Below, piece after piece: positions 51,972-63,989 of a DNA stretch of 64,000 nt. A program made the translations under genes and the position numbers. Under the pieces are notes generated by a model. The model searched no databases. It was not told the DNA's origin and saw only the letters and a list, made by a program, of their open reading frames with translations. The DNA is from Nitrospirota bacterium (GTDB lineage Bacteria > Nitrospirota > Nitrospiria > SBBL01 > JAADHI01): assembly GCA_029261195.1 (NCBI GenBank), contig JAJDBU010000063.1, forward strand, positions 1 to 64,000, read 5' to 3'. Each line of letters starts with the position of its first letter. Positions within the stretch are counted from its first letter, which is position 1.

Positions 51972-52475
51972 GTGAAAAGATTCATTATGTTGACTGCCCT
52001 CGTTATGGCCTTGGCTTTTACTTTTACTTCAAATGGACTCTCAGCAGGATACGGGGTCACTGGATGTGGTCTTGGAGGGATGCTTGTCAAAGACAATGGG
52101 ACACTCGCTCAAATTGGTGCATGGTTTTTAAATACGATTTTAGGAAATCAAACCTTTGGTATGACATCGGGTACTTCCGGCTGTGGTGAGGAGAGTGGCT
52201 TAGTTTTATCCAAAAGCGAACAGAAAATCTTTGTGGAAAATAATTACGAAAATCTTTTAAAAGAAATGGCCGCCGGTCAAGGTGAAAACCTGAAAACCCT
52301 GGCCGCTCTTATAGGCTGTTCTGCAGAGCAGAGTGAAGACTTCGGTCGCTTTGCACAAGAACGTTATGCCTCTATTTTTAAAACAGCCGAAACAACCCCG
52401 ACTGAAATGCTGGTGGCTTTAGAAGTCGAGCTATCAAAAAACACAAGGCGATCCACATCATGCCACGGGATTTAA
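51972..52475 (+). CDS. DUF3015-family secreted protein (copy 1)
   Basis: GTG start. A signal peptide ends at LSAGYG, after which the family pattern GYG-GCGLG and, further on, FGMTSGTSGC are seen. A helical C-terminal part with two more cysteines follows. DUF3015 proteins are small periplasmic or outer-membrane-associated proteins with no known function. It is paralogous to the next gene. Confidence 0.8.
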   Translation: MKRFIMLTALVMALAFTFTSNGLSAGYGVTGCGLGGMLVKDNGTLAQIGAWFLNTILGNQTFGMTSGTSGCGEESGLVLSKSEQKIFVENNYENLLKEMAAGQGENLKTLAALIGCSAEQSEDFGRFAQERYASIFKTAETTPTEMLVALEVELSKNTRRSTSCHGI

Positions 52476-52543
52476 TATGCAGGCTTATTGGAAAGAGTTC
52501 ATCCTATGAAGAATGATCCAAGTTGCTGAGCAGAGAGGGTAGG

Positions 52544-53029
52544 ATGAAAAAAGTTGTTTTTTCATTTTTAGGGGTCATGATCTTCACTTCGCCCGCATTT
52601 TCAACAGGATATGGAGATGCAGGGTGTGGCTTAGGTTCTATTATTATTGGTGATGAATCCGGACCGGTACAAATTCTTGCCGCAACATTGAACGGGGTTT
52701 CCTATAACCAGGTATTTGGGGTTTCATCGGGCACCTCGAACTGTGATCCCGATGGAATTGTCCTTGCTGAACAAGAAAGACATCGCTTTGTCGTTCAAAA
52801 CTTTGCCAGCCTCGAAAAAGAAATGGCGAGTGGAGGAGGGGAGCATATCAGAACATTGGCAAGTCTGTTAGGCTGTCCGTCTGAAAAAAGAGTGCAGTTT
52901 ATTTCTTATACGCAGCAGAACTACGAAAGCATTTTTGAAAATGAAAAGACAACACCGAAAGAAATGTTGAACACCCTCAGAAAAGGCTTGTCAACCCATC
53001 CCGAACTTACGGCATCTTGTGTCAGTTAA
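52544..53029 (+). CDS. DUF3015-family secreted protein (copy 2)
   Basis: ATG 52544 is chosen because GAGGGTAGG lies directly ahead; the longer frame adds seven residues that are not signal-like. Signal cleavage near FSTGYG, then GCGLG and FGVSSGTSNC. The spacing of the cysteines and the KTTPKEML motif matches copy 1, so the pair arose by tandem duplication. Confidence 0.8.
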   Translation: MKKVVFSFLGVMIFTSPAFSTGYGDAGCGLGSIIIGDESGPVQILAATLNGVSYNQVFGVSSGTSNCDPDGIVLAEQERHRFVVQNFASLEKEMASGGGEHIRTLASLLGCPSEKRVQFISYTQQNYESIFENEKTTPKEMLNTLRKGLSTHPELTASCVS

Positions 53030-53376
53030 AAATACTCTGATCAGCTCAAGACTTGTTTGTAGAGCAAAATTCCCCGCTTCTTTGTTCCAAATCTTGTTTA
53101 TAGCGAGCTATTCTCTGTAATTTTCGCCTTGAATCGAATGTTTTATCTCCGGAAAACCCAATCCAGACTCAATCAGACACCTCTTAGAATATTAATTGCA
53201 TTGCGGGCGTGTCCAGCCTATAATCCTGTGCTGTTTTCTTGAAAAATGGTCAAAGATCTAAAAGGAATGTATCAAGAGAGAAGTGGTGGAAGTCCTTCTT
53301 CTGTTGCCCTGTGTGTGGCATGTTCACCACGACTTAAATTGAAAATGGAGGTATGGTGAGGGAAGGAGAAAATACG
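53030..53376 (+). promoter_or_regulatory. intergenic region with sigma70 promoter for the fused sugar enzyme
   Basis: TTGCAT (53196-53201) and a consensus TATAAT (53219-53224) are 17 bases apart, predicting a leader of about 145 bases before the start at 53377. No gene remnant or strong terminator is seen elsewhere in this gap. Confidence 0.6.
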
Positions 53377-54954
53377 ATGTTACCTGGGGTCGCGGTCATC
53401 GGAGGTGGACACTGGGGTAAAAATTTGATCAGGAACTTTCACGGACTTAAATCGCTTGCTGCGATCTGTGATTGCGACGAAGAACGACTTTCAAATTATA
53501 AAGAACAATATCCGGATTGTAAGATCCTTTCATTTTTTGAAATTCTGAAAGATGAGACAATTCCGGCAATAGTGATTGCAACACCAGCCGAAACGCATAG
53601 GGCCTTCGTCGAAGAAGCGATCTTAGCCGGTAAGGATGTTTTTGTGGAAAAACCACTCTGCCTTTCGGTAAAAGAAGGAAAAGAACTTGTGGCCTTGGCT
53701 CGTGAAAAAGAACGAATCTTAATGGTAGGACACCTCCTATGGTATCACCCGGCTGTCCTTAAATTGAAGGAATTGATTGATTCCGGAGAACTCGGGAGAA
53801 TTCAATATATCTATTCAAACCGACTCAATCTTGGAAAAATCCGGCGAGAGGAGAATATCCTCTGGTCCTTCGCCCCCCACGATATTTCCGTTATTCTGGG
53901 CTTGCTAGGGGAAGTACCTGAAAATGTTGAAGCCCAGGGGGGAAACTATCTTCATCCTCAGATTGCTGATGTCACAGTGAGTCTCCTTTCCTTTGCAAGC
54001 GGAATTAAGGCGCATGTTTTTGTTTCCTGGCTCCATCCTTTTAAAGAACAGAAGTTAATTGTCGTCGGCGATAAAAAGATGGCGGTCTTCGATGACATGG
54101 AGAAGAAGGACAAACTTCTGCTTTATCCTCACTCGATTGAATGGAAAAACCATCTGCCCGTTCCCAATAAAGCTGAGGCACAGACAGTACAGCTCCCGGA
54201 AGGAGAACCCCTTCGGGCCGAGTGCCTTCACTTTCTTAAAGCAGTCGAGACAAGAACGAAACCTCGCACTGACGGAGAAGAGGGCCTGCGTGTCCTCAAA
54301 GTCCTACAACAGTGCCAGGAATCCTTAGGGGTAAAAGCACAAGCTCAAACTCAATCAGTATCGGAAAGCCCTTCTACTCCTTTTTTTGCCCATAAATCGG
54401 TCTATGTTGATGAAGAAGTTGCTGTGGGGCAAGGGACACGCATCTGGCATTTTTCACATATTCTGAAAGGCTCCTCTATTGGCAAAGGGTGTAAAATTGG
54501 TCAAAATTGCGTGATTGGCCCTAATGTGAATATTGGCAATAATGTTAAGATTCAAAATAATGTCTCTGTCTATGAGGGCGTGACGCTTGAAGATCATGTC
54601 TTTTGTGGCCCTTCAATGGTTTTTACTAATGTTTTTAACCCGCGAAGCGAAATTCCAAGAATGGACGCTCTTAGAAAAACGCTCCTGAAACAAGGCGCAA
54701 CCATTGGTGCAAACGCCACGATACTTTGCGGAATTACGGTTGGCAGATATGCCTTCATCGGGGCAGGAGCTGTTGTGATCAAAGATGTTCCCGACTATGC
54801 TGTCGTCGTTGGAAACCCGGCCAGGCTTACAGGCTCGATATGTAGATGCGGAATAAAACTGGTCTTTGCCGGAAATAAAGCCACCTGCCTTGACTGTGGA
54901 CAGTCTTACGAAAAAGAAGAAAACCTTGTTCACTCGGTTGTAAACGATCAATAA
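53377..54954 (+). CDS. fused WbpB-type dehydrogenase and WbpD-type N-acetyltransferase
   Basis: Residues 1-320 are a Gfo/Idh/MocA oxidoreductase: VIGGGHWGKNLIRNF, then the EKPLCLS motif with its catalytic lysine and the APHDISVI histidine region. After a short linker, residues about 340-490 are a left-handed beta-helix acyltransferase (IGPNVNIGNNVKIQNNVSVYEGV). The C-terminus carries a CXC/CXXC zinc-ribbon-like tail. In Pseudomonas the separate enzymes WbpB and WbpD act on UDP-GlcNAcA to form a 2,3-diacetamido uronic acid. Start ATG 53377 (AAGGAGAA ahead) is preferred to ATG 53353. The partner aminotransferase follows; wbpA and wbpI are not in the window. Confidence 0.82.
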   Translation: MLPGVAVIGGGHWGKNLIRNFHGLKSLAAICDCDEERLSNYKEQYPDCKILSFFEILKDETIPAIVIATPAETHRAFVEEAILAGKDVFVEKPLCLSVKEGKELVALAREKERILMVGHLLWYHPAVLKLKELIDSGELGRIQYIYSNRLNLGKIRREENILWSFAPHDISVILGLLGEVPENVEAQGGNYLHPQIADVTVSLLSFASGIKAHVFVSWLHPFKEQKLIVVGDKKMAVFDDMEKKDKLLLYPHSIEWKNHLPVPNKAEAQTVQLPEGEPLRAECLHFLKAVETRTKPRTDGEEGLRVLKVLQQCQESLGVKAQAQTQSVSESPSTPFFAHKSVYVDEEVAVGQGTRIWHFSHILKGSSIGKGCKIGQNCVIGPNVNIGNNVKIQNNVSVYEGVTLEDHVFCGPSMVFTNVFNPRSEIPRMDALRKTLLKQGATIGANATILCGITVGRYAFIGAGAVVIKDVPDYAVVVGNPARLTGSICRCGIKLVFAGNKATCLDCGQSYEKEENLVHSVVNDQ

Positions 54955-54968
54955 ATAGGAGATTCTCT

Positions 54969-56108
54969 GTGAAAATACCTTTATTAGACTTAAAAGCACA
55001 CCACACTCCGATTGAAAAAGAATTGCTTGCTGCAATTGGAGAGGTCTTGCGTAGTCAGGCTTTTATCCTTGGCCCTACAGTAAAAAATCTGGAAGAGAGA
55101 ATCGCATCTTATTCACACACAGCACATGCGATCGGTGTTTCTTCCGGCACGGATGCACTGCTGGTCTCTCTCATGGCCCTTGATATTGGTCCGGGTGATG
55201 AAGTGATTACGACTGCATACTCCTTTTTTGCGACAGCCGGTGTCATTTCACGACTTGGCGCTAAACCGGTATTTGTTGACATTGATCCCACGAGTTACAA
55301 CATTGATCCGGACAAAATTGAGCCTGCAATTACAGCAAAAACAAAAGCGATCATCGCTGTCCATTTATATGGTCAGATTGCCGATATGTCAGCAATCCAG
55401 GCTGTGGCTGACCGTCATAGCCTTAAGGTTGTTGAAGATGCGGCACAAGCAATCGGTGCGGAAAACCAGGAGGGGAAACGGGCAGGGGAACTGGGAGATC
55501 TGGGTTGTTTTTCCTTCTTCCCAAGCAAGAACCTGGGTGCCCTGGGAGACGGCGGTATGGTTGTCACGAACGATGCAGCCCTTGCCGAGAAGGTTCGCAT
55601 GTTGCGGGTTCATGGCGGTAAGCCGAAGTACTACCATAGTATTGTCGGTGGAAACTTTCGTCTTGATGCGATCCAGGCTGCTGTTGTGAATGTAAAATTG
55701 AATTATCTTGATGGCTGGACTGCGGCACGCCAGGAAAATGCAAAACGCTATACTGAACTTTTCATAAAGAGCGGGCTTGTTGAGAAAATGGGAGTGAAGC
55801 TTCCAAAGCCCATCTACAAAGATTCCGGGACAGCGCATTTTCACATCTATAACCAGTATGTCATTCGTGTCCCAAACCGGGACAAGCTTCGTGCCTATCT
55901 TAAGGAGAATGAAATCGGGCATGATGTCTATTACCCGATTCCTTTTCATCTTCAGGAATGTTTTCAAGACCTTGGTTACAAAAAAGGTGATTTTCCGGAA
56001 TCAGAGCGGGCAGCTAATGAGACAATTGCCCTGCCAATATATCCTGAACTGACAGCCGAAATGCAGGAGGAAGTTGTCAGCCGAATCGCTCAGTTTCTCA
56101 TTGCATGA
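54969..56108 (+). CDS. WbpE/WlbC-type sugar 3-aminotransferase
   Basis: A DegT-fold PLP enzyme of 379 residues. The Schiff-base lysine is in FFPSKNLGALGDGG, with SSGTDALLVSLMAL and VVEDAAQAIGA. WbpE relatives convert the 3-keto-UDP-GlcNAcA formed by the dehydrogenase into the 3-amino sugar. GTG start with AGGAG ahead, 14 bases after the fused enzyme. Together they give three of the usual activities for 2,3-diacetamido sugars. Confidence 0.85.
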   Translation: MKIPLLDLKAHHTPIEKELLAAIGEVLRSQAFILGPTVKNLEERIASYSHTAHAIGVSSGTDALLVSLMALDIGPGDEVITTAYSFFATAGVISRLGAKPVFVDIDPTSYNIDPDKIEPAITAKTKAIIAVHLYGQIADMSAIQAVADRHSLKVVEDAAQAIGAENQEGKRAGELGDLGCFSFFPSKNLGALGDGGMVVTNDAALAEKVRMLRVHGGKPKYYHSIVGGNFRLDAIQAAVVNVKLNYLDGWTAARQENAKRYTELFIKSGLVEKMGVKLPKPIYKDSGTAHFHIYNQYVIRVPNRDKLRAYLKENEIGHDVYYPIPFHLQECFQDLGYKKGDFPESERAANETIALPIYPELTAEMQEEVVSRIAQFLIA

Positions 56109-56501: not shown

Positions 56502-57296
56502 GTGAAAAACCTTCTATTGGCTACCTGGTTCTACAGGCAGTTCATTATCTCGTCTATCAAAAATGATTTTAAGGCCCGTTTTGCGCGGAGCAGGCTTGGT
56601 GGAGCCTGGATGGTATTACATCCTCTTTCCACGGTTTTAATGTATGCGCTGGTTCTTTCTGCTGTGCTTTCAGCTAAGATGCCCGGAATTAATAATCGTT
56701 TTTCTTACGCCATTTATCTTACAGCTGGGACCTTATCCTGGTCTCTCTTTTCAGAAGTCCTGTCACGTTGTCTGACCATCTTTATTGACAACGGCAACTT
56801 AATGAAAAAAATAGTCTTTCCGAGAACCTGCTTGCCATTAATCGTGACCGGCTCCGCATTGGTCAACAATGCTCTGTTGCTACTCTCTATTATTGTTATC
56901 TTTGCATTGCTTGGCCATTATCCCGGGGTGGATGCCCTTTGGCTGCCGCTATTATTTGTCATTACTATCGCTTTCGGATTGGGTATAGGTCTTATCTTGG
57001 GAGTGCTTAATGTGTTTGTTCGTGATATTGGGCAGGTTGTACCGATCATATTGCAGTTTTCCTTTTGGTTTACACCCATTGTTTATACGGTGGACATCAT
57101 CCCCGAGCACTATCGGTACTTATTGCAATACAACCCCATGTATCACATTGTAAGTGCTTACCATAATGTATTGGTGTATCTCCGGCCACCAGAATGGCAT
57201 GGATTGTTGGTTGTCACTGCAGTGAGTATCATTCTTCTCGCTTTTTCCTTGTTTTTGTTTCGCCGTGCCGGTGCTGAAATGGTGGATGTTTTATGA
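56502..57296 (+). CDS. wzm: O-polysaccharide ABC exporter permease
   Basis: A six-helix ABC-2 type permease of 264 residues. The start has the Wzm pattern DFKARFARSRLGGAWMVLHPL and KKIVFPR, with FSFWFTPIVY later. It moves lipid-linked O-polysaccharide across the inner membrane with the ATPase encoded next, with which it overlaps by ATGA. GTG start with a weak GAGAAG site. Confidence 0.9.
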   Translation: MKNLLLATWFYRQFIISSIKNDFKARFARSRLGGAWMVLHPLSTVLMYALVLSAVLSAKMPGINNRFSYAIYLTAGTLSWSLFSEVLSRCLTIFIDNGNLMKKIVFPRTCLPLIVTGSALVNNALLLLSIIVIFALLGHYPGVDALWLPLLFVITIAFGLGIGLILGVLNVFVRDIGQVVPIILQFSFWFTPIVYTVDIIPEHYRYLLQYNPMYHIVSAYHNVLVYLRPPEWHGLLVVTAVSIILLAFSLFLFRRAGAEMVDVL

Positions 57297-58597
57297 GTGT
57301 TGTCCTGGAAGTTGTCGACTTAGGAAAGGCCTATCGACATTACAGCTCGCAACTTTACCGCATACTTTCCTGGTTTGGGCTGAGGGTTAAGCCTATCGAA
57401 GAACACTGGGTGTTGCAGAATATCAGCTTTTCTCTACACTCAGGAGAAGCAATAGGAATCGTCGGGCAGAATGGTGCGGGAAAAAGTACGCTACTCAAAC
57501 TCATCACTGGTACTCAACGTGCCACAACTGGTCAGATACATACTAAGGGTCGTATCGCCGCTATCCTAGAATTGGGAATGGGTTTTAATCCCGAATTTAC
57601 CGGGCGTCAAAATGCATTTCATGGCTTAGGGCTAATGGGATTTAGCAATGAAGAAATAGAAAAGGTGCTTCCAGAACTGGAGACTTTTGCCGAAATCGGT
57701 GAATACTTCGACCAGCCCTTGCGTACATATTCCAGTGGCATGCAGATGCGTGTTGCATTTGCAGTGGTGACAGCGTTTCGCCCTGATATTTTAATCGTAG
57801 ACGAAGCTCTTTCTGTCGGTGATGCTTACTTTCAGGCAAAGTGCTATGAACTCATTATTTCTTACAAGAAACAGGGTACAACTTTGATTTTAGTTACGCA
57901 TTCTATTGGCGACATCGTTAAACACTGTACTCGTGCGTTGTATATTCGTGATGGCCGACTCACCGTGGATGGTAGTCCACGTGATGTTAGTAATTTTTAC
58001 CTGGATGACTTATTTGGTAATAGTAAAGAGAAGTCAGGAAAGCAGGGACTCTCGAAATCTGTAAGCGATGCCACCGAAGTTATGAATGGTACGGAGGATA
58101 AGTTTCATACTCGTCTCGGCTACCGCAAAGAAGAACACCGCTGGGGTAATGGTGGCGCACGTATTCTGGATTACCTGGTGCATGTCAATGGACAAGACTA
58201 TCCGGCTATCATTGAGAGCAATGCCAAAGCCGAATTCTCCTTCAAGGTGATATTTGATGCTGGGTTTGACGAGATCACTGCAGGCTTTCTTCTTAAAACA
58301 CACGATGGTGTATTTCTATATGGCACTAACTCGTTTCTTGTAACCGAAGGAAAACAAGCTATATCTGCGGACAAAGGGGAGGGCATTGTTTTTAAGTTTG
58401 AAGTGCCCATGACCCTAAATGCCGGTCACTATATGGTGTCTTTCGGCATTGCCACCGGTCCACAGGAAATGCTGAAACCACTAGACAGGCGCTATGATTC
58501 CATCCTTCTGACTGTCGTGCGGCCGATGGGGTTTTGGGGCTTGGTTGACCTTCGGGCAGAATTCGGCATGACCAGGGAAACTATCAATGTCTCGTAA
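57293..58597 (+). CDS. wzt: O-polysaccharide ABC exporter ATPase with carbohydrate-binding domain
   Basis: Walker A GQNGAGKST (58-66), signature YSSGMQMR (146-153) and Walker B ILIVDE (166-171) give a complete nucleotide-binding domain. The C-terminal 170 residues after about 265 form a Wzt-C beta-sandwich (AEFSFKVIFDA, GHYMVSFGIA). In E. coli O8/O9a this domain recognises the modified non-reducing end made by WbdD. Its presence matches the WbdD-like terminator fused in the next gene, which overlaps by 11 bases. Confidence 0.92.
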   Translation: MSVVLEVVDLGKAYRHYSSQLYRILSWFGLRVKPIEEHWVLQNISFSLHSGEAIGIVGQNGAGKSTLLKLITGTQRATTGQIHTKGRIAAILELGMGFNPEFTGRQNAFHGLGLMGFSNEEIEKVLPELETFAEIGEYFDQPLRTYSSGMQMRVAFAVVTAFRPDILIVDEALSVGDAYFQAKCYELIISYKKQGTTLILVTHSIGDIVKHCTRALYIRDGRLTVDGSPRDVSNFYLDDLFGNSKEKSGKQGLSKSVSDATEVMNGTEDKFHTRLGYRKEEHRWGNGGARILDYLVHVNGQDYPAIIESNAKAEFSFKVIFDAGFDEITAGFLLKTHDGVFLYGTNSFLVTEGKQAISADKGEGIVFKFEVPMTLNAGHYMVSFGIATGPQEMLKPLDRRYDSILLTVVRPMGFWGLVDLRAEFGMTRETINVS

Positions 58598-61500
58598 AGT
58601 TACCAAGAGCAACCTTCAATGCCTGGTTGCGGCGCTACCAGAAGTCTATCAGCCTATTTACACCCATCCGGAACTTTCCCGTAGTGTATCGCGTGCCTGC
58701 CGGGATAGGCTTGAGTATATAGTCCAGGTGTACGAATCGCTTGTTGCCCAATTGCAGCGCCCCTTGCGCGTACTTGATCTGGGATCTGCGCAAGGCTTCT
58801 TCAGCTTTAGTCTGGCTGAGCTTGGTGCCAGCGTACATGGTGTGGATTATCTTGATGATAATGTAGCTGTTTGCAAGGAACTTGCAGATGAGCATAAAAA
58901 CCTGAATGTCAGCTTTCAAGTTGGACGCATTGAGGATGTATTACAACAGCTTGAGAGGGGGCAGTATGACCTAGTACTTGGCCTGAGCGTGTTCCACCAT
59001 ATTGTGCAGGAAAAAAGTGCGGCAGCGGTTGGTCAAATGTTGAGCGAGTTAGCTGGCAACGTGGAGGTAGGCATTTTCGAATTCGCCCAGGCCTCAGAAC
59101 CTTTGTACTGGGCGGAGGCACAACCAGAACAACCCCGGCAATTACTTAATGGTTTTGCCTTTGTGCATGAATTGTCACGGCACGAAACACACCTGTCGTC
59201 CATCGCACGGCCTTTGTACTTTTCCAGCAATCACTACTGGTACTTGAACGCCCGAGGGGGCGTTTTTGATTCAACACAAACATATTCAAACGCACTTGCA
59301 CAGGGTGTTCATCAAGGCACAAGGCAGTATTACTTCGGCAATGGGTTACTTGTAAAGCAATATCGACTGGATAACGCGGAATGTTTAGAGGGTAATCTTG
59401 AGGAGTACCACAACGAAGCCACCTTCTTGACTGATCCGCCATCGGGATTCAATGTCCCAGAGCTTGTGTTACACGGCCAGCATGAAAGTGAAGCGTGGAT
59501 AGTGCGGGCACTACTACCCGGTGAACTGTTGCTTGATGTCATATGCCATAAAAAAAAATATAACCCCACTCAGGTACTGGGCGATATCCTGACACAACTG
59601 GCTGTACTCGAAGCCGATGGATTGTATCACAACGATGTGCGCGTCTGGAACGTGCTAATAAATGCTGATGGCGCTGCAACGCTTTTTGACTATGGGGCAA
59701 TATCTGCAAGAGCCAATGACTGTGTATGGCCGAATGATATCTTTCTTTCATTTTTGATTTTTGTGCATGAAGTGACAACAGGTAATGTCGGTTCGCCAGT
59801 GCCGTTACGTGCTACCCGAATAAGTCCTTTTGGATTGACTGAGCCATATCTGAAATGGACTATGGCTTTCTGGTCGCGGCCTGTCGGCGAATGGAACTTC
59901 AGTCTTCTACACGAATTATTTATGCAAAGGGATACACTCTCCGATAGCAATACGTACAGCGATACATCGACCCAGCTTTGGGTACAAACTATGGAAGAGG
60001 CTCTTGATGGCGAAATTTCAAAAACACAGCATCTGGAGTCGCAACTCGGCAGAAGGAGCGAACAGCTGGCAGATCTGGAGTCGCAACTCGGCAGAAGGAG
60101 CGAACAGCTGGCAGATAGTGAAGCCGCACTTGGGACGGTCAGTCTTGAGTTGAAATCTGTTTACAATAGCAAATCTTGGTACCTTACCAAACCGATACGA
60201 GAATTGAAGTCGTTCTGCAAGCGTCTGTTTGCTCTGAGAAACCGAACCATGCTATGGCTCGCCCATCTGTCCAAACGCTCAGTCCTCTGGGTGCTACTCA
60301 AGGCCATGGCCTATATTACTAAACGTTCTGGGCTGCAAATACGGGCCAAGACTTGGCTGCTGAAATATCCGAGACTTAAAACAAAATTACGACGGCTATT
60401 GGAGCAGGGTCTGACTACTAAACGACCGAGTAAAACTTCTTATCCTGATCATCACGAAACTAAACTATTTGACCGCTTCAAGCAAAGTATTCACTGCCAA
60501 AATACTGATGCTTCTTTTGTCTTGCCGCTTCCATCGGGTGCACGAAATATTTATATCTACGTTGATCATACTGTTCTCTGTTCAACGAATACGGGAATAC
60601 AGCGTGTTACTCGTGGCGTTGCAGCGAGTCTTCGATCGCTTGGAGAGAATGTTCATTATGTGAAATGGGATGCCGTCGAAGGTCAATGTGTATTGATCAA
60701 TATAGAGGAACGTCGGTTCCTTGCGGAATGGAATGGTCCTTCTGTCCACGAGACCGAGCTTAAATACTATCCATCTAGCGATGGAGAACAGATTTCAGTT
60801 GCACCACATGTCCTAGGCGAAAACAATTGGTTGATTGTCCCTGAAGTTACCCATATTACCTACCACGAGCACCCCGTTACATTGAATCTGTTGCAGTGGT
60901 CTCGCAGTGCTGGGCTTAAAACAGGATTTATCTTTTACGATTCCATCCCGTTAAGACGCGATGAGTTGCACGAAATGTCTTCTAGACACGCAAAGTACAT
61001 GCGACATCTCTTGCTGGCAGACGTTGTCTGGCCCATATCGCAATGGTCAGCTGACGATCTCATTGCATACTGGGTGAGGAATGAGTGTGCAAGCATGAAA
61101 ACGATGCCTGAAATAGAGGTGCTTCATTTGTCCGGAGAGTCATTACTTTGTGAGCGAATCCGAGAGCCGAAAGACGGGGAAAAATTGATTCTTTCCGTCG
61201 GTTCCATTGAGCCGAGAAAAAATCAGGTTATGCTTATCAGGGCTTTTGAAGCCTATCGTAAGCTTCACCCAGACAGTGAATGGCGTTTGACTCTAGTCGG
61301 GAATATCCATCCCTTGGTCGCAGAGGAAGTTACCCGCGCTCAAGGTGCAGATAAGGCAATCTTGCATGTTGGGAATGTTTCCAACCAGAAGCTTGATTCG
61401 CTATATCGTTCGTGTGCGTTTACCGTTTTTCCATCAGTTGAAGAAGGCTTTGGTCTGCCGATCCTCGAGAGTTTATGGTACGCAAAGCCATGCATCTGCG

Positions 61501-63989
61501 CCAACTTTGGGTCTATGGCAGAAGTTGCCGGAGACAGAGGTTGTTATACGGTGGATACGAGGGATCAAGCAATACTTGAAGAAGCCGTCATACGCCTAAT
61601 TGACGATGAGGCGTTTCGTCATACACTAGCGGTTCAGGCTGCAGCACGTCCTATGAGTTCATGGATTGATTATGGTGCTGCAATCCAGGCACGAGTGGAA
61701 AAAGAGGGTCACCCCGAAGCTTGTCTTGGTCGAGTTTATTACTGGATAGATTCGACTATTCAATTCCCAAAAAACACAGGCATTCAACGAGTAGCGCGTC
61801 AACTTGCATGTGAATTAATAGAGATGGGGGTATCTCTTATCCCAGTTAAGTGGGATAAATCGCAGTCGGGATTGTGCTCGGTTACCTGTGATGAGCTTAC
61901 GCATTTTTCAAAATGGAATGGACCAAATGAAGAATCATGGCATGATTGGAGCGCACCGGATACCAAGAGGAAACTTGATTGGTTTATTCTGCCGGATTTG
62001 CCACTTAACCACTCCACTGCAGAGCAGGTGCAGTTGCTGGAATATTTGCACAGGGTTGGCTTGCATTCTGCGGCTATTTTTTACGACACGATTCCCTGGA
62101 AGATGAGAGACATTTACCCTCCACACTTTTCTCAGGCCCATCGCGAATATATGATCGGTTTGGCAGAATATGATCTTATTTTCCCTATTTCCTTTTTTAG
62201 TCGAGAAGATTTGATTGATTTTCTAGGGGGATTAGTACTTTCTTGCCCCCAAGGGATAGATAAAAGGATAAAATCCGTAGTCTTACCTGGGGAGTTTCCT
62301 GAGAGTCCTCGAGTTACTACTATCGTGCCGAGTGCGGATGGAGTCATTACGGTCTTATGTGTGGGCACGGTTGAACCACGTAAGAACCATGAGACTCTAC
62401 TCCAAGCTTTTGAACTTGCAACCCAACACTGTGGTGAGCCATTACGTCTCGTTATCGCGGGTGGCAAACATAGTATTGAACCTGAGTTGGGAAAGCGCGT
62501 GAGAGCTTTTATCGGAAATTCTCCGAACGTGACCTGGGAGGAAGACGTTGATGACAACCGGTTACGGGAACTACAACTCGCTTGTGATTTTACGGTATAC
62601 CCTTCCATAGAGGAGGGGTTTGGCTTGCCAATCCTGGAAAGCCTGTGGTATGCCAAACCCAGCATCTGCGCGAATTTTGGTGCCATGCGGGAAGCAGCTG
62701 AAGGAGGCGGATGCCTCATGGTTGATGTGAGCAGCGTTGAAACATTAGCTGGAGCCATCCAGCGCATGGTTGAAGATATATCGTTGCGAGAGGCTTTAAC
62801 AATTGAAGCGGTGGAGCGTCCTTTCAAGACTTGGAATGACTATGCTGTGGAAGTGGCTACACGGCTAGCGGAAGCGACTCCCGTCCAATTTTCTGAATTA
62901 AAGCTTACTCAAAGTGAGATCGAGTCGCGTGCACAGTCGATGAATCTTGTACCTCGCCCCAAGCTCTCAATCTGTATCAGCACCTACAACCGTGCTGATT
63001 GGCTGGCGACTAGTTTAAAGAACTGGTCGAGCCTATATCCTGAGCCTCTTCCAGGTGTGGAGTTTCTAGTGTGCGATAACGCGTCTACAGACCACACTCC
63101 GGAAATTGTCAAGCCATATTTGGAACGGATGGATTTCTCCTACCACCGTAATGTACATAATGTCGGAATGCTCGGTAACTTGCGGGAAACCACACATCGC
63201 ACTCGCGGTGAATATGTGTGGATTCTTGGTGATGATGACCTGCTGATGCCAAATGCCATCGAACGAGTGATGGGTATTCTCCAGTCGAATTTGGGTGTGG
63301 CGCTGGTCTATTTGAATTATGCTTTTACTCGAGTAGAAGATGCGCGTACTCTTACCGATTTTGATGCTTTTTTCCGTGCGAGTACCCCCATCGTGCCTGC
63401 CGAACCAGATCTAGAAGGCCCGATCTATACGATCTGTGCACGCAACGAGAATTTCTTTACTGCGATCTATGCGCTGGTTTTTAGACGTGATCACGCAATA
63501 AAGGCTTACTCACAAGATACCAGCGGCCGTCCCTTCTCGACCATGCTTACCTGCATCCCTACCACCTATTATGTGCTCAATTATATGATGTATGAGCCTG
63601 GTTTTTGGATTGGTGAACCTATGGTGGTGGTTAATATGAATGTATCCTGGCTCAGATACGCGCCACTTTGGATTTTAGAACGAATTCCAGAAGTATACGA
63701 CTTTGCTGAAAAACAAGGCGTCCCCAAGGATCAGATGGATCGATGGAGGAGCCACACTCTTCCAGGGGTTGTAAATTATTTCAAGATTATTTTTGAAGAC
63801 GACCCTTTGAATAATGCCGAATATTTTAGGCCGGATAGAGTTATACGCCGATTTAAGCATCTGCCCGAGTTTGCAGCAGTATCAAAGGAACTCCGTGATA
63901 TCTACTCATACGCTCATGCCAAAGGACATCCGGCGGCAACTAAACCAGTTTCAGTTGTTTTTCCGGAAAACCAAGAAGGCCACTTCTAA
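58587..63989 (+). CDS. WbdD-like methyltransferase-kinase fused to GT4-GT4-GT2
   Basis: One 1800-residue chain. Residues 20-230 are a SAM methyltransferase (motif I VLDLGSAQG, 62-70). About 245-440 is a small-molecule kinase with catalytic H348-N-D350, N355 and metal-binding D368 (FDYG). Residues 465-530 are a coiled coil with a perfect 14-residue duplication. About 650-1040 is a GT4 domain (EX7E at E953/E961) and about 1050-1440 a second, related GT4 (E1343/E1351). Residues 1457-1700 are a GT2 transferase (STYNRADW, DDD1549-1551). In E. coli O8/O9a the terminator WbdD caps the chain and is a separate protein from the polymerase WbdA. Here they appear joined. Located with Wzm/Wzt, it probably builds, measures and caps the exported polymer. 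Confidence 0.88.
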   Translation: MSRKVTKSNLQCLVAALPEVYQPIYTHPELSRSVSRACRDRLEYIVQVYESLVAQLQRPLRVLDLGSAQGFFSFSLAELGASVHGVDYLDDNVAVCKELADEHKNLNVSFQVGRIEDVLQQLERGQYDLVLGLSVFHHIVQEKSAAAVGQMLSELAGNVEVGIFEFAQASEPLYWAEAQPEQPRQLLNGFAFVHELSRHETHLSSIARPLYFSSNHYWYLNARGGVFDSTQTYSNALAQGVHQGTRQYYFGNGLLVKQYRLDNAECLEGNLEEYHNEATFLTDPPSGFNVPELVLHGQHESEAWIVRALLPGELLLDVICHKKKYNPTQVLGDILTQLAVLEADGLYHNDVRVWNVLINADGAATLFDYGAISARANDCVWPNDIFLSFLIFVHEVTTGNVGSPVPLRATRISPFGLTEPYLKWTMAFWSRPVGEWNFSLLHELFMQRDTLSDSNTYSDTSTQLWVQTMEEALDGEISKTQHLESQLGRRSEQLADLESQLGRRSEQLADSEAALGTVSLELKSVYNSKSWYLTKPIRELKSFCKRLFALRNRTMLWLAHLSKRSVLWVLLKAMAYITKRSGLQIRAKTWLLKYPRLKTKLRRLLEQGLTTKRPSKTSYPDHHETKLFDRFKQSIHCQNTDASFVLPLPSGARNIYIYVDHTVLCSTNTGIQRVTRGVAASLRSLGENVHYVKWDAVEGQCVLINIEERRFLAEWNGPSVHETELKYYPSSDGEQISVAPHVLGENNWLIVPEVTHITYHEHPVTLNLLQWSRSAGLKTGFIFYDSIPLRRDELHEMSSRHAKYMRHLLLADVVWPISQWSADDLIAYWVRNECASMKTMPEIEVLHLSGESLLCERIREPKDGEKLILSVGSIEPRKNQVMLIRAFEAYRKLHPDSEWRLTLVGNIHPLVAEEVTRAQGADKAILHVGNVSNQKLDSLYRSCAFTVFPSVEEGFGLPILESLWYAKPCICANFGSMAEVAGDRGCYTVDTRDQAILEEAVIRLIDDEAFRHTLAVQAAARPMSSWIDYGAAIQARVEKEGHPEACLGRVYYWIDSTIQFPKNTGIQRVARQLACELIEMGVSLIPVKWDKSQSGLCSVTCDELTHFSKWNGPNEESWHDWSAPDTKRKLDWFILPDLPLNHSTAEQVQLLEYLHRVGLHSAAIFYDTIPWKMRDIYPPHFSQAHREYMIGLAEYDLIFPISFFSREDLIDFLGGLVLSCPQGIDKRIKSVVLPGEFPESPRVTTIVPSADGVITVLCVGTVEPRKNHETLLQAFELATQHCGEPLRLVIAGGKHSIEPELGKRVRAFIGNSPNVTWEEDVDDNRLRELQLACDFTVYPSIEEGFGLPILESLWYAKPSICANFGAMREAAEGGGCLMVDVSSVETLAGAIQRMVEDISLREALTIEAVERPFKTWNDYAVEVATRLAEATPVQFSELKLTQSEIESRAQSMNLVPRPKLSICISTYNRADWLATSLKNWSSLYPEPLPGVEFLVCDNASTDHTPEIVKPYLERMDFSYHRNVHNVGMLGNLRETTHRTRGEYVWILGDDDLLMPNAIERVMGILQSNLGVALVYLNYAFTRVEDARTLTDFDAFFRASTPIVPAEPDLEGPIYTICARNENFFTAIYALVFRRDHAIKAYSQDTSGRPFSTMLTCIPTTYYVLNYMMYEPGFWIGEPMVVVNMNVSWLRYAPLWILERIPEVYDFAEKQGVPKDQMDRWRSHTLPGVVNYFKIIFEDDPLNNAEYFRPDRVIRRFKHLPEFAAVSKELRDIYSYAHAKGHPAATKPVSVVFPENQEGHF
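60033..60116 (+). repeat. perfect 42-bp tandem duplication in the coiled coil
   Basis: Two identical in-frame copies of 42 bases (60033-60074 and 60075-60116), each coding LESQLGRRSEQLAD (residues 483-510). Fourteen residues equal two heptads, so the coiled-coil register is kept. Confidence 0.95.

Follow-up and report, generated by a model that had tools for sequence, protein, structure and literature searches.

Can a single polypeptide of this Nitrospirota bacterium terminate, measure and polymerise an O-polysaccharide? In E. coli O9a, whose glycan terminates in methyl phosphate (PMC3482155), and in Klebsiella O3, the terminator WbdD consists of a methyltransferase, a eukaryotic-type kinase, a coiled coil and a membrane-near C-terminal part, is encoded beside wzm-wzt and exists as a protein of its own, to which WbdA is recruited non-covalently. 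The window analyzed here is the stretch of 64,000 nucleotides formed by bases 1-64000 of one contig, and it contains a gene that the original prediction had read as methyltransferase, kinase, coiled coil, GT4, GT4 and GT2, in this order. Pfam, PDB sequence matches and a heptad test bear out this order. Pfam placed a methyltransferase at residues 60-151, a weak kinase match at 289-371, GT4 domains at 861-1018 and ~1243-1400, and a GT2 at 1461-1572. The gene and its parts are as follows.

58587..63989, plus strand, whole fused gene, 1800 aa, one open frame with ATG start
58611..59222, plus strand, WbdD-type methyltransferase (residues 9-212), PDB match to WbdD, E 7e-58
59229..59981, plus strand, WbdD-type kinase (residues 215-465), PDB match to WbdD, E 2e-47
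59982..60164, plus strand, short coiled coil, the presumed ruler (residues 466-526), by heptad test
60031..60114, plus strand, exact 42-bp tandem duplication in the ruler, LESQLGRRSEQLAD twice, two heptads in each copy
60168..60413, plus strand, WbdD C-terminal region including the SxSW motif (residues 528-609), by similarity to the Delftia WbdD C-terminus
60414..60551, plus strand, linker at the junction (residues 610-655), where a coding/start scan gave no internal start that has a Shine-Dalgarno site
60552..61721, plus strand, GT4 module a (residues 656-1045), EX7E at 952 and TGIQRV at 669, by Pfam and motifs
61722..62906, plus strand, GT4 module b (residues 1046-1440), EX7E at 1342 and TGIQRV at 1064, by Pfam and motifs
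62907..63986, plus strand, GT2 module (residues 1441-1800), DDD motif at 1549, 42% to a Rhodovastum GT2

Judged by its sequence, 58587-63989 encodes an entire WbdD followed in the same chain by a glycosyltransferase of three modules. Both enzyme domains, the coiled coil and the C-terminal region share one frame with GT4-GT4-GT2, in keeping with the covalent union that had been predicted, and the gene was therefore filed as a fused variant and not as a plain WbdD. The chain combines a terminator, a coiled coil and at least two glycosyltransferase modules beside an ABC exporter, and, unlike in WbdD, the polymerase candidate is attached covalently.

The ORF analysis found zero internal stops over the 1800 codons following the ATG. 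Since the contig runs on to 156 kb (in a genome of 3.04 Mb, 99% complete), the fused ORF is not an artefact of the window edge. It is collinear with genes that are usually neighbors: the order is wzm-wzt-wbdD-wbdA in E. coli HS, wzm-wzt-WbdD-triple GT4 in Delftia acidovorans and wzm-wzt-WbdD-(GT4-GT2-GT4-methyltransferase) in a genome of the same class (G023), so that the C-terminal half of the fusion occupies the polymerase position. The gene after the stand-alone WbdD of G023 (L031:8857-13191) is itself a fusion, of 1,444 residues. WbdD-type genes were rare, found in 2 of 269 genomes of the organism's own class, 2 of 395 in a phylum sample and, in three sets of genomes around Delftia, 1 of 369, 2 of 399 and 1 of 398. 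The search for the same domain order that had been proposed located the fusion only in the window, and ~1,800 genome look-ups gave no second fused WbdD, although the samples are small and overlapping and other fusions may exist. The open frame of the window copy, the sole fused one in the samples, has a length of 1805 versus 744-844 for the others. No relatives were found among viral contigs, and phage records gave weak glycosyltransferase matches only. This singularity, together with the separate occurrence of both halves (WbdD in E. coli, Delftia and G023, GT4-GT4-GT2 in Rhodovastum), is what an assembly or sequencing error joining two genes that are separate in the cell would produce. However, the frame is unbroken through the junction, the coding score of the fusion frame is the best of six in each 75-codon block, junction included, residues 600-660 contain no start codon that has a Shine-Dalgarno site, and the single 156-kb contig has an even base composition, all of which makes such an error very improbable. 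A search for an internal start at the junction gave its first Shine-Dalgarno-like candidate not before residue 692, inside the GT4 fold, and this start was rejected.

The terminator half resembles WbdD, as had been claimed, and does so in each of its parts. For residues 9-481, the PDB sequence search ranked WbdD crystal structures first (E 9e-114), as it did for the methyltransferase and the kinase searched alone, with PAK4 (1e-6) as the runner-up for the latter. Identity to the WbdD of E. coli O9a/Klebsiella O3 was 39% over 505 residues. In an alignment with the WbdD of E. coli HS as the reference, the methyltransferase pocket keeps Y16, R31, C33, R36 and H197, and the kinase keeps the equivalents of D351 (D350 in the fusion), R353, W355, N356, D369 and E274, while D350 is changed to N349, Y230 to N235 and R270 to G269. 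In E. coli, Y230 and R270 touch the acceptor sugars or help to place them (PMC3482155); their replacement suggests that the acceptor sugar of the fusion kinase differs from that of E. coli, and it counts against the reading favored below. The same losses, with N in place of D350, could also mean that the fusion is real but its kinase inactive, the cap then being a methyl group alone, as it is in E. coli O8. We regard this as most unlikely, given the residues kept, the O9-like binding domain of the neighboring Wzt and the behavior of the E. coli mutants, of which D351A is kinase-dead but D350A retains activity (PMC3482155). Beyond the enzymes, the C-terminal end of Delftia WbdD has its counterpart in residues ~524-609 (28% over 85 aa, E 6e-9, two-sequence comparison), from which it appears that the whole of WbdD is inside the fusion. 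The putative membrane-associated helix of this region has a weaker amphipathic moment than in E. coli WbdD. A predicted structure of the N-terminal half, made from only two aligned sequences, had a mean pLDDT of 46; Foldseek placed WbdD entries first for it (E 4e-21) with TM-scores of only ~0.3, a ranking that seems to add little beyond the sequence match. The model of the GT4-GT4 stretch (pLDDT 34) was set aside.

Between the kinase and the C-terminal region, the coil at residues 466-526 has hydrophobic residues at 72% of a/d positions versus 16% elsewhere (p = 0.0006 by shuffling), and the low-confidence structure model shows one continuous helix from 459 to 526. From the motif at the end of the kinase to SxSW there are 64 residues in the fusion, 71 in G023, 128 in E. 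coli HS and 159 in Delftia. At 0.15 nm per residue, this gives a ruler of ~10 nm for the fusion versus 19 nm for E. coli, where about 20 nm has been reported (PMC5082667). The 42-bp duplication codes for LESQLGRRSEQLAD twice and adds two heptads in register. It might point to a self-contained glycan synthase whose product length depends on nothing but the geometry of a single molecule and whose ruler has grown through exact tandem duplications (of two heptads in the fusion, and of 51 residues once or twice in the plasmid-borne WbdD described next), so that repeat copy number would set polymer length. We put this generalization forward only tentatively and consider it rather doubtful.

Variation of the ruler was also found in plasmid-borne wbdD genes of the O9 type, hosted by Enterobacter, E. 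coli and Klebsiella. In their alleles of 708, 759 and 810 residues, a unit of 153 bp (51 residues) is present in one, two and three exact copies; it sits at the boundary of kinase and coil, and its length is not a multiple of seven residues. The alleles otherwise differ by 0-2 mismatches and their wzt genes are nearly identical. The copies located are these.

L042:6992-9424, L045:1492-3924 and L046:1492-3924, three-copy wbdD
L047:1492-3771, two-copy wbdD
L048:1492-3618 and L049:1492-3618, one-copy wbdD

The chromosomal full-length E. coli wbdD genes among the matches listed were 2127 bp each. The allele series is natural variation of ruler length, and by analogy with engineered rulers (PMC5082667) the one-, two- and three-copy versions would be expected to alter chain length. 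Incidentally, IncX5, IncR and IncFIA plasmids, some of them conjugative, carry whole O9-type loci with wzm, wzt, wbdD and wbdA (L042, L045-L049).

The genes around the fusion bear on what it might make.

53353..54954, plus strand, oxidoreductase fused to a hexapeptide acyltransferase (probable amino-sugar step), by domain search
54969..56108, plus strand, DegT-type sugar aminotransferase, by domain search
56502..57296, plus strand, wzm, ABC-2 permease, PF01061
57293..58597, plus strand, wzt, ATPase with carbohydrate-binding domain, PF14524 (Wzt_C) E 8e-25
contig 64009-65253 (L028:12010-13254), past the window end, C-methyltransferase, 69% to a Rhodovastum neighbor

As the original prediction stated, wzm and a wzt with a matching binding domain lie immediately upstream of the fusion. 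The Wzm product is 46% identical to E. coli O9 Wzm and 56% to that of a same-class relative, and the carbohydrate-binding domain of Wzt shares 51% identity with its E. coli O9 counterpart. The product of 53353-54954 resembles WbpB fused to WbpD, and its DegT neighbor resembles WbpE, a set that would serve a diacetamido sugar. Downstream, outside the window, follow the C-methyltransferase, a GT4, gmd (TIGR01472 above cut-off) and another GT4; the first of these GT4s is 31% identical to the adapter enzyme WbdB over its full length (366 residues). These genes suggest a locus for a heteropolymer of a GDP-6-deoxyhexose, probably C-methylated, and amino sugars, rather than for a plain mannan. Further upstream, 51972-52475 and 52523-53029 encode adjacent secreted DUF3015 proteins, an apparent tandem duplication.

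Both GT4 modules of the fusion carry EX7E, EPRK and TGIQRV, the GT2 carries GDDDLL, and the two GT4s, compared along their whole length, share 34% identity. E. coli O9 WbdA likewise has two GT4 modules with EPRK motifs, and its C-terminal module shares the GIQRV signature, but it has no GT2 module. The description of this half as WbdA-like stands as far as the presence of two GT4 modules. As to orthology, the fusion modules are only about 24-29% identical to those of WbdA, no better than to WbdB, and the sugar genes of the cluster are not those of a mannan. The closest relatives of the GT4s are each other and a stand-alone GT4-GT4-GT2 protein encoded on a plasmid of Rhodovastum atsumiense (WP_250265836.1, 1,310 residues), which has the same module order without a fused terminator and is 35, 34 and 42% identical to the fusion modules. 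The similarity starts at fusion residue 656, where GT4a begins, and the Rhodovastum protein has an extra spacer between its GT4s. A C-methyltransferase encoded nearby shares 69% identity with the one whose gene immediately follows the fusion, far over the 34-42% of the glycosyltransferase modules, which hints at a shared C-methylated sugar.

The genomic context of this homologue raises the question of whether the cassette is the polymerase at all. It lies near flagellin, FkbM and DUF4214 genes, and neither WbdD nor Wzm/Wzt is annotated within ~23 kb on each side, so that GT4-GT4-GT2 need not be a polymerase. The N-terminal half could then be a working WbdD with GT4-GT4-GT2 building an adapter, primer or side chain and the true polymerase being another enzyme. 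Two GT4 genes lie downstream of the fusion, and a shorter relative in Azospirillum thermophilum, GT4-x-GT2 beside gmd, has a single full GT4 plus the GT2 only. However, the other GT4s of the cluster are all single-module, one of them the WbdB-like protein, a search with the fusion protein found no comparable separate multi-module glycosyltransferase in the organism's own genome, and in characterized relatives the multi-glycosyltransferase part beside the terminator is the polymerase (PMC11231755). We therefore consider an adapter, primer or side-chain role unlikely, if clearly less so than a joining error or an inactive kinase.

The likely reading is that the gene encodes a one-polypeptide O-polysaccharide assembly enzyme, with a WbdD-type cap, a ruler and a polymerase. 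By analogy with E. coli O9a and Klebsiella O12 and O7 (PMC3482155, PMC11231755, PMC5082667), the GT4-GT4-GT2 part would extend an undecaprenyl-linked glycan at the membrane, where the adjacent WbdD C-terminal region would anchor the protein, while the coil (~61 residues, ~9 nm, half the E. coli O9a length) would carry the kinase-methyltransferase off the membrane. Upon arrival of the growing end, the kinase would phosphorylate the terminal sugar, the methyltransferase would cap the phosphate and growth would stop; the capped chain would then be selected by the Wzt binding domain and exported via Wzm/Wzt. That the fusion caps, polymerises and controls length, and that its cassette is a polymerase and not the builder of another glycan, is inferred, as are its oligomeric state and the structure and chain length of its polymer. 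The fixed 1:1 ratio of cap to polymerase and the altered length control that had been predicted would reasonably follow.

The single-polypeptide principle has already been published. In both Klebsiella O12 WbbB and O7 ORF6, one chain unites the terminator with the ruler and the polymerase (PMC11231755). In WbbB, an N-terminal terminator, a coiled-coil ruler and polymerase glycosyltransferases follow each other as in the fusion, but the cap is beta-Kdo and the three glycosyltransferase modules founded GT99, GT102 and GT103 (PMC11231755). O7 ORF6 also has a methyltransferase-kinase terminator and a coiled coil in the same chain as its polymerase modules, and it uses methyl phosphate too, one glycosyltransferase being supplied separately; ORF6-type orthologs joined to additional glycosyltransferase modules are also mentioned (PMC11231755). 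It differs in its AmiN-like kinase, 'quite different' from that of WbdD, an extra carbohydrate-binding domain and a GT2-GT2 end (PMC11231755). Compared with this published description of O7, the fusion falls outside the ORF6 subtype, with a kinase matching WbdD and GT4-GT4-GT2 modules. Lcin_0519 of Legionella was also considered and discarded, its authors calling it a clearly different kinase-methyltransferase family (PMC9758233). No WbdD-type fusion was found in the open-access papers searched, and a WbdD-type cap within the single-polypeptide principle was not found elsewhere, as far as we could establish.

If the proposed reading is true, this would be, as far as we have found, the first case of a covalent link between a WbdD-type methyl-phosphate terminator and its presumed polymerase, and the one-polypeptide design would have arisen more than once, from different parts. 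With the ratio of terminator to polymerase no longer variable, the ruler hypothesis would become testable on a single protein, and the one-, two- and three-copy plasmid alleles of wbdD offer a natural length series for testing it.
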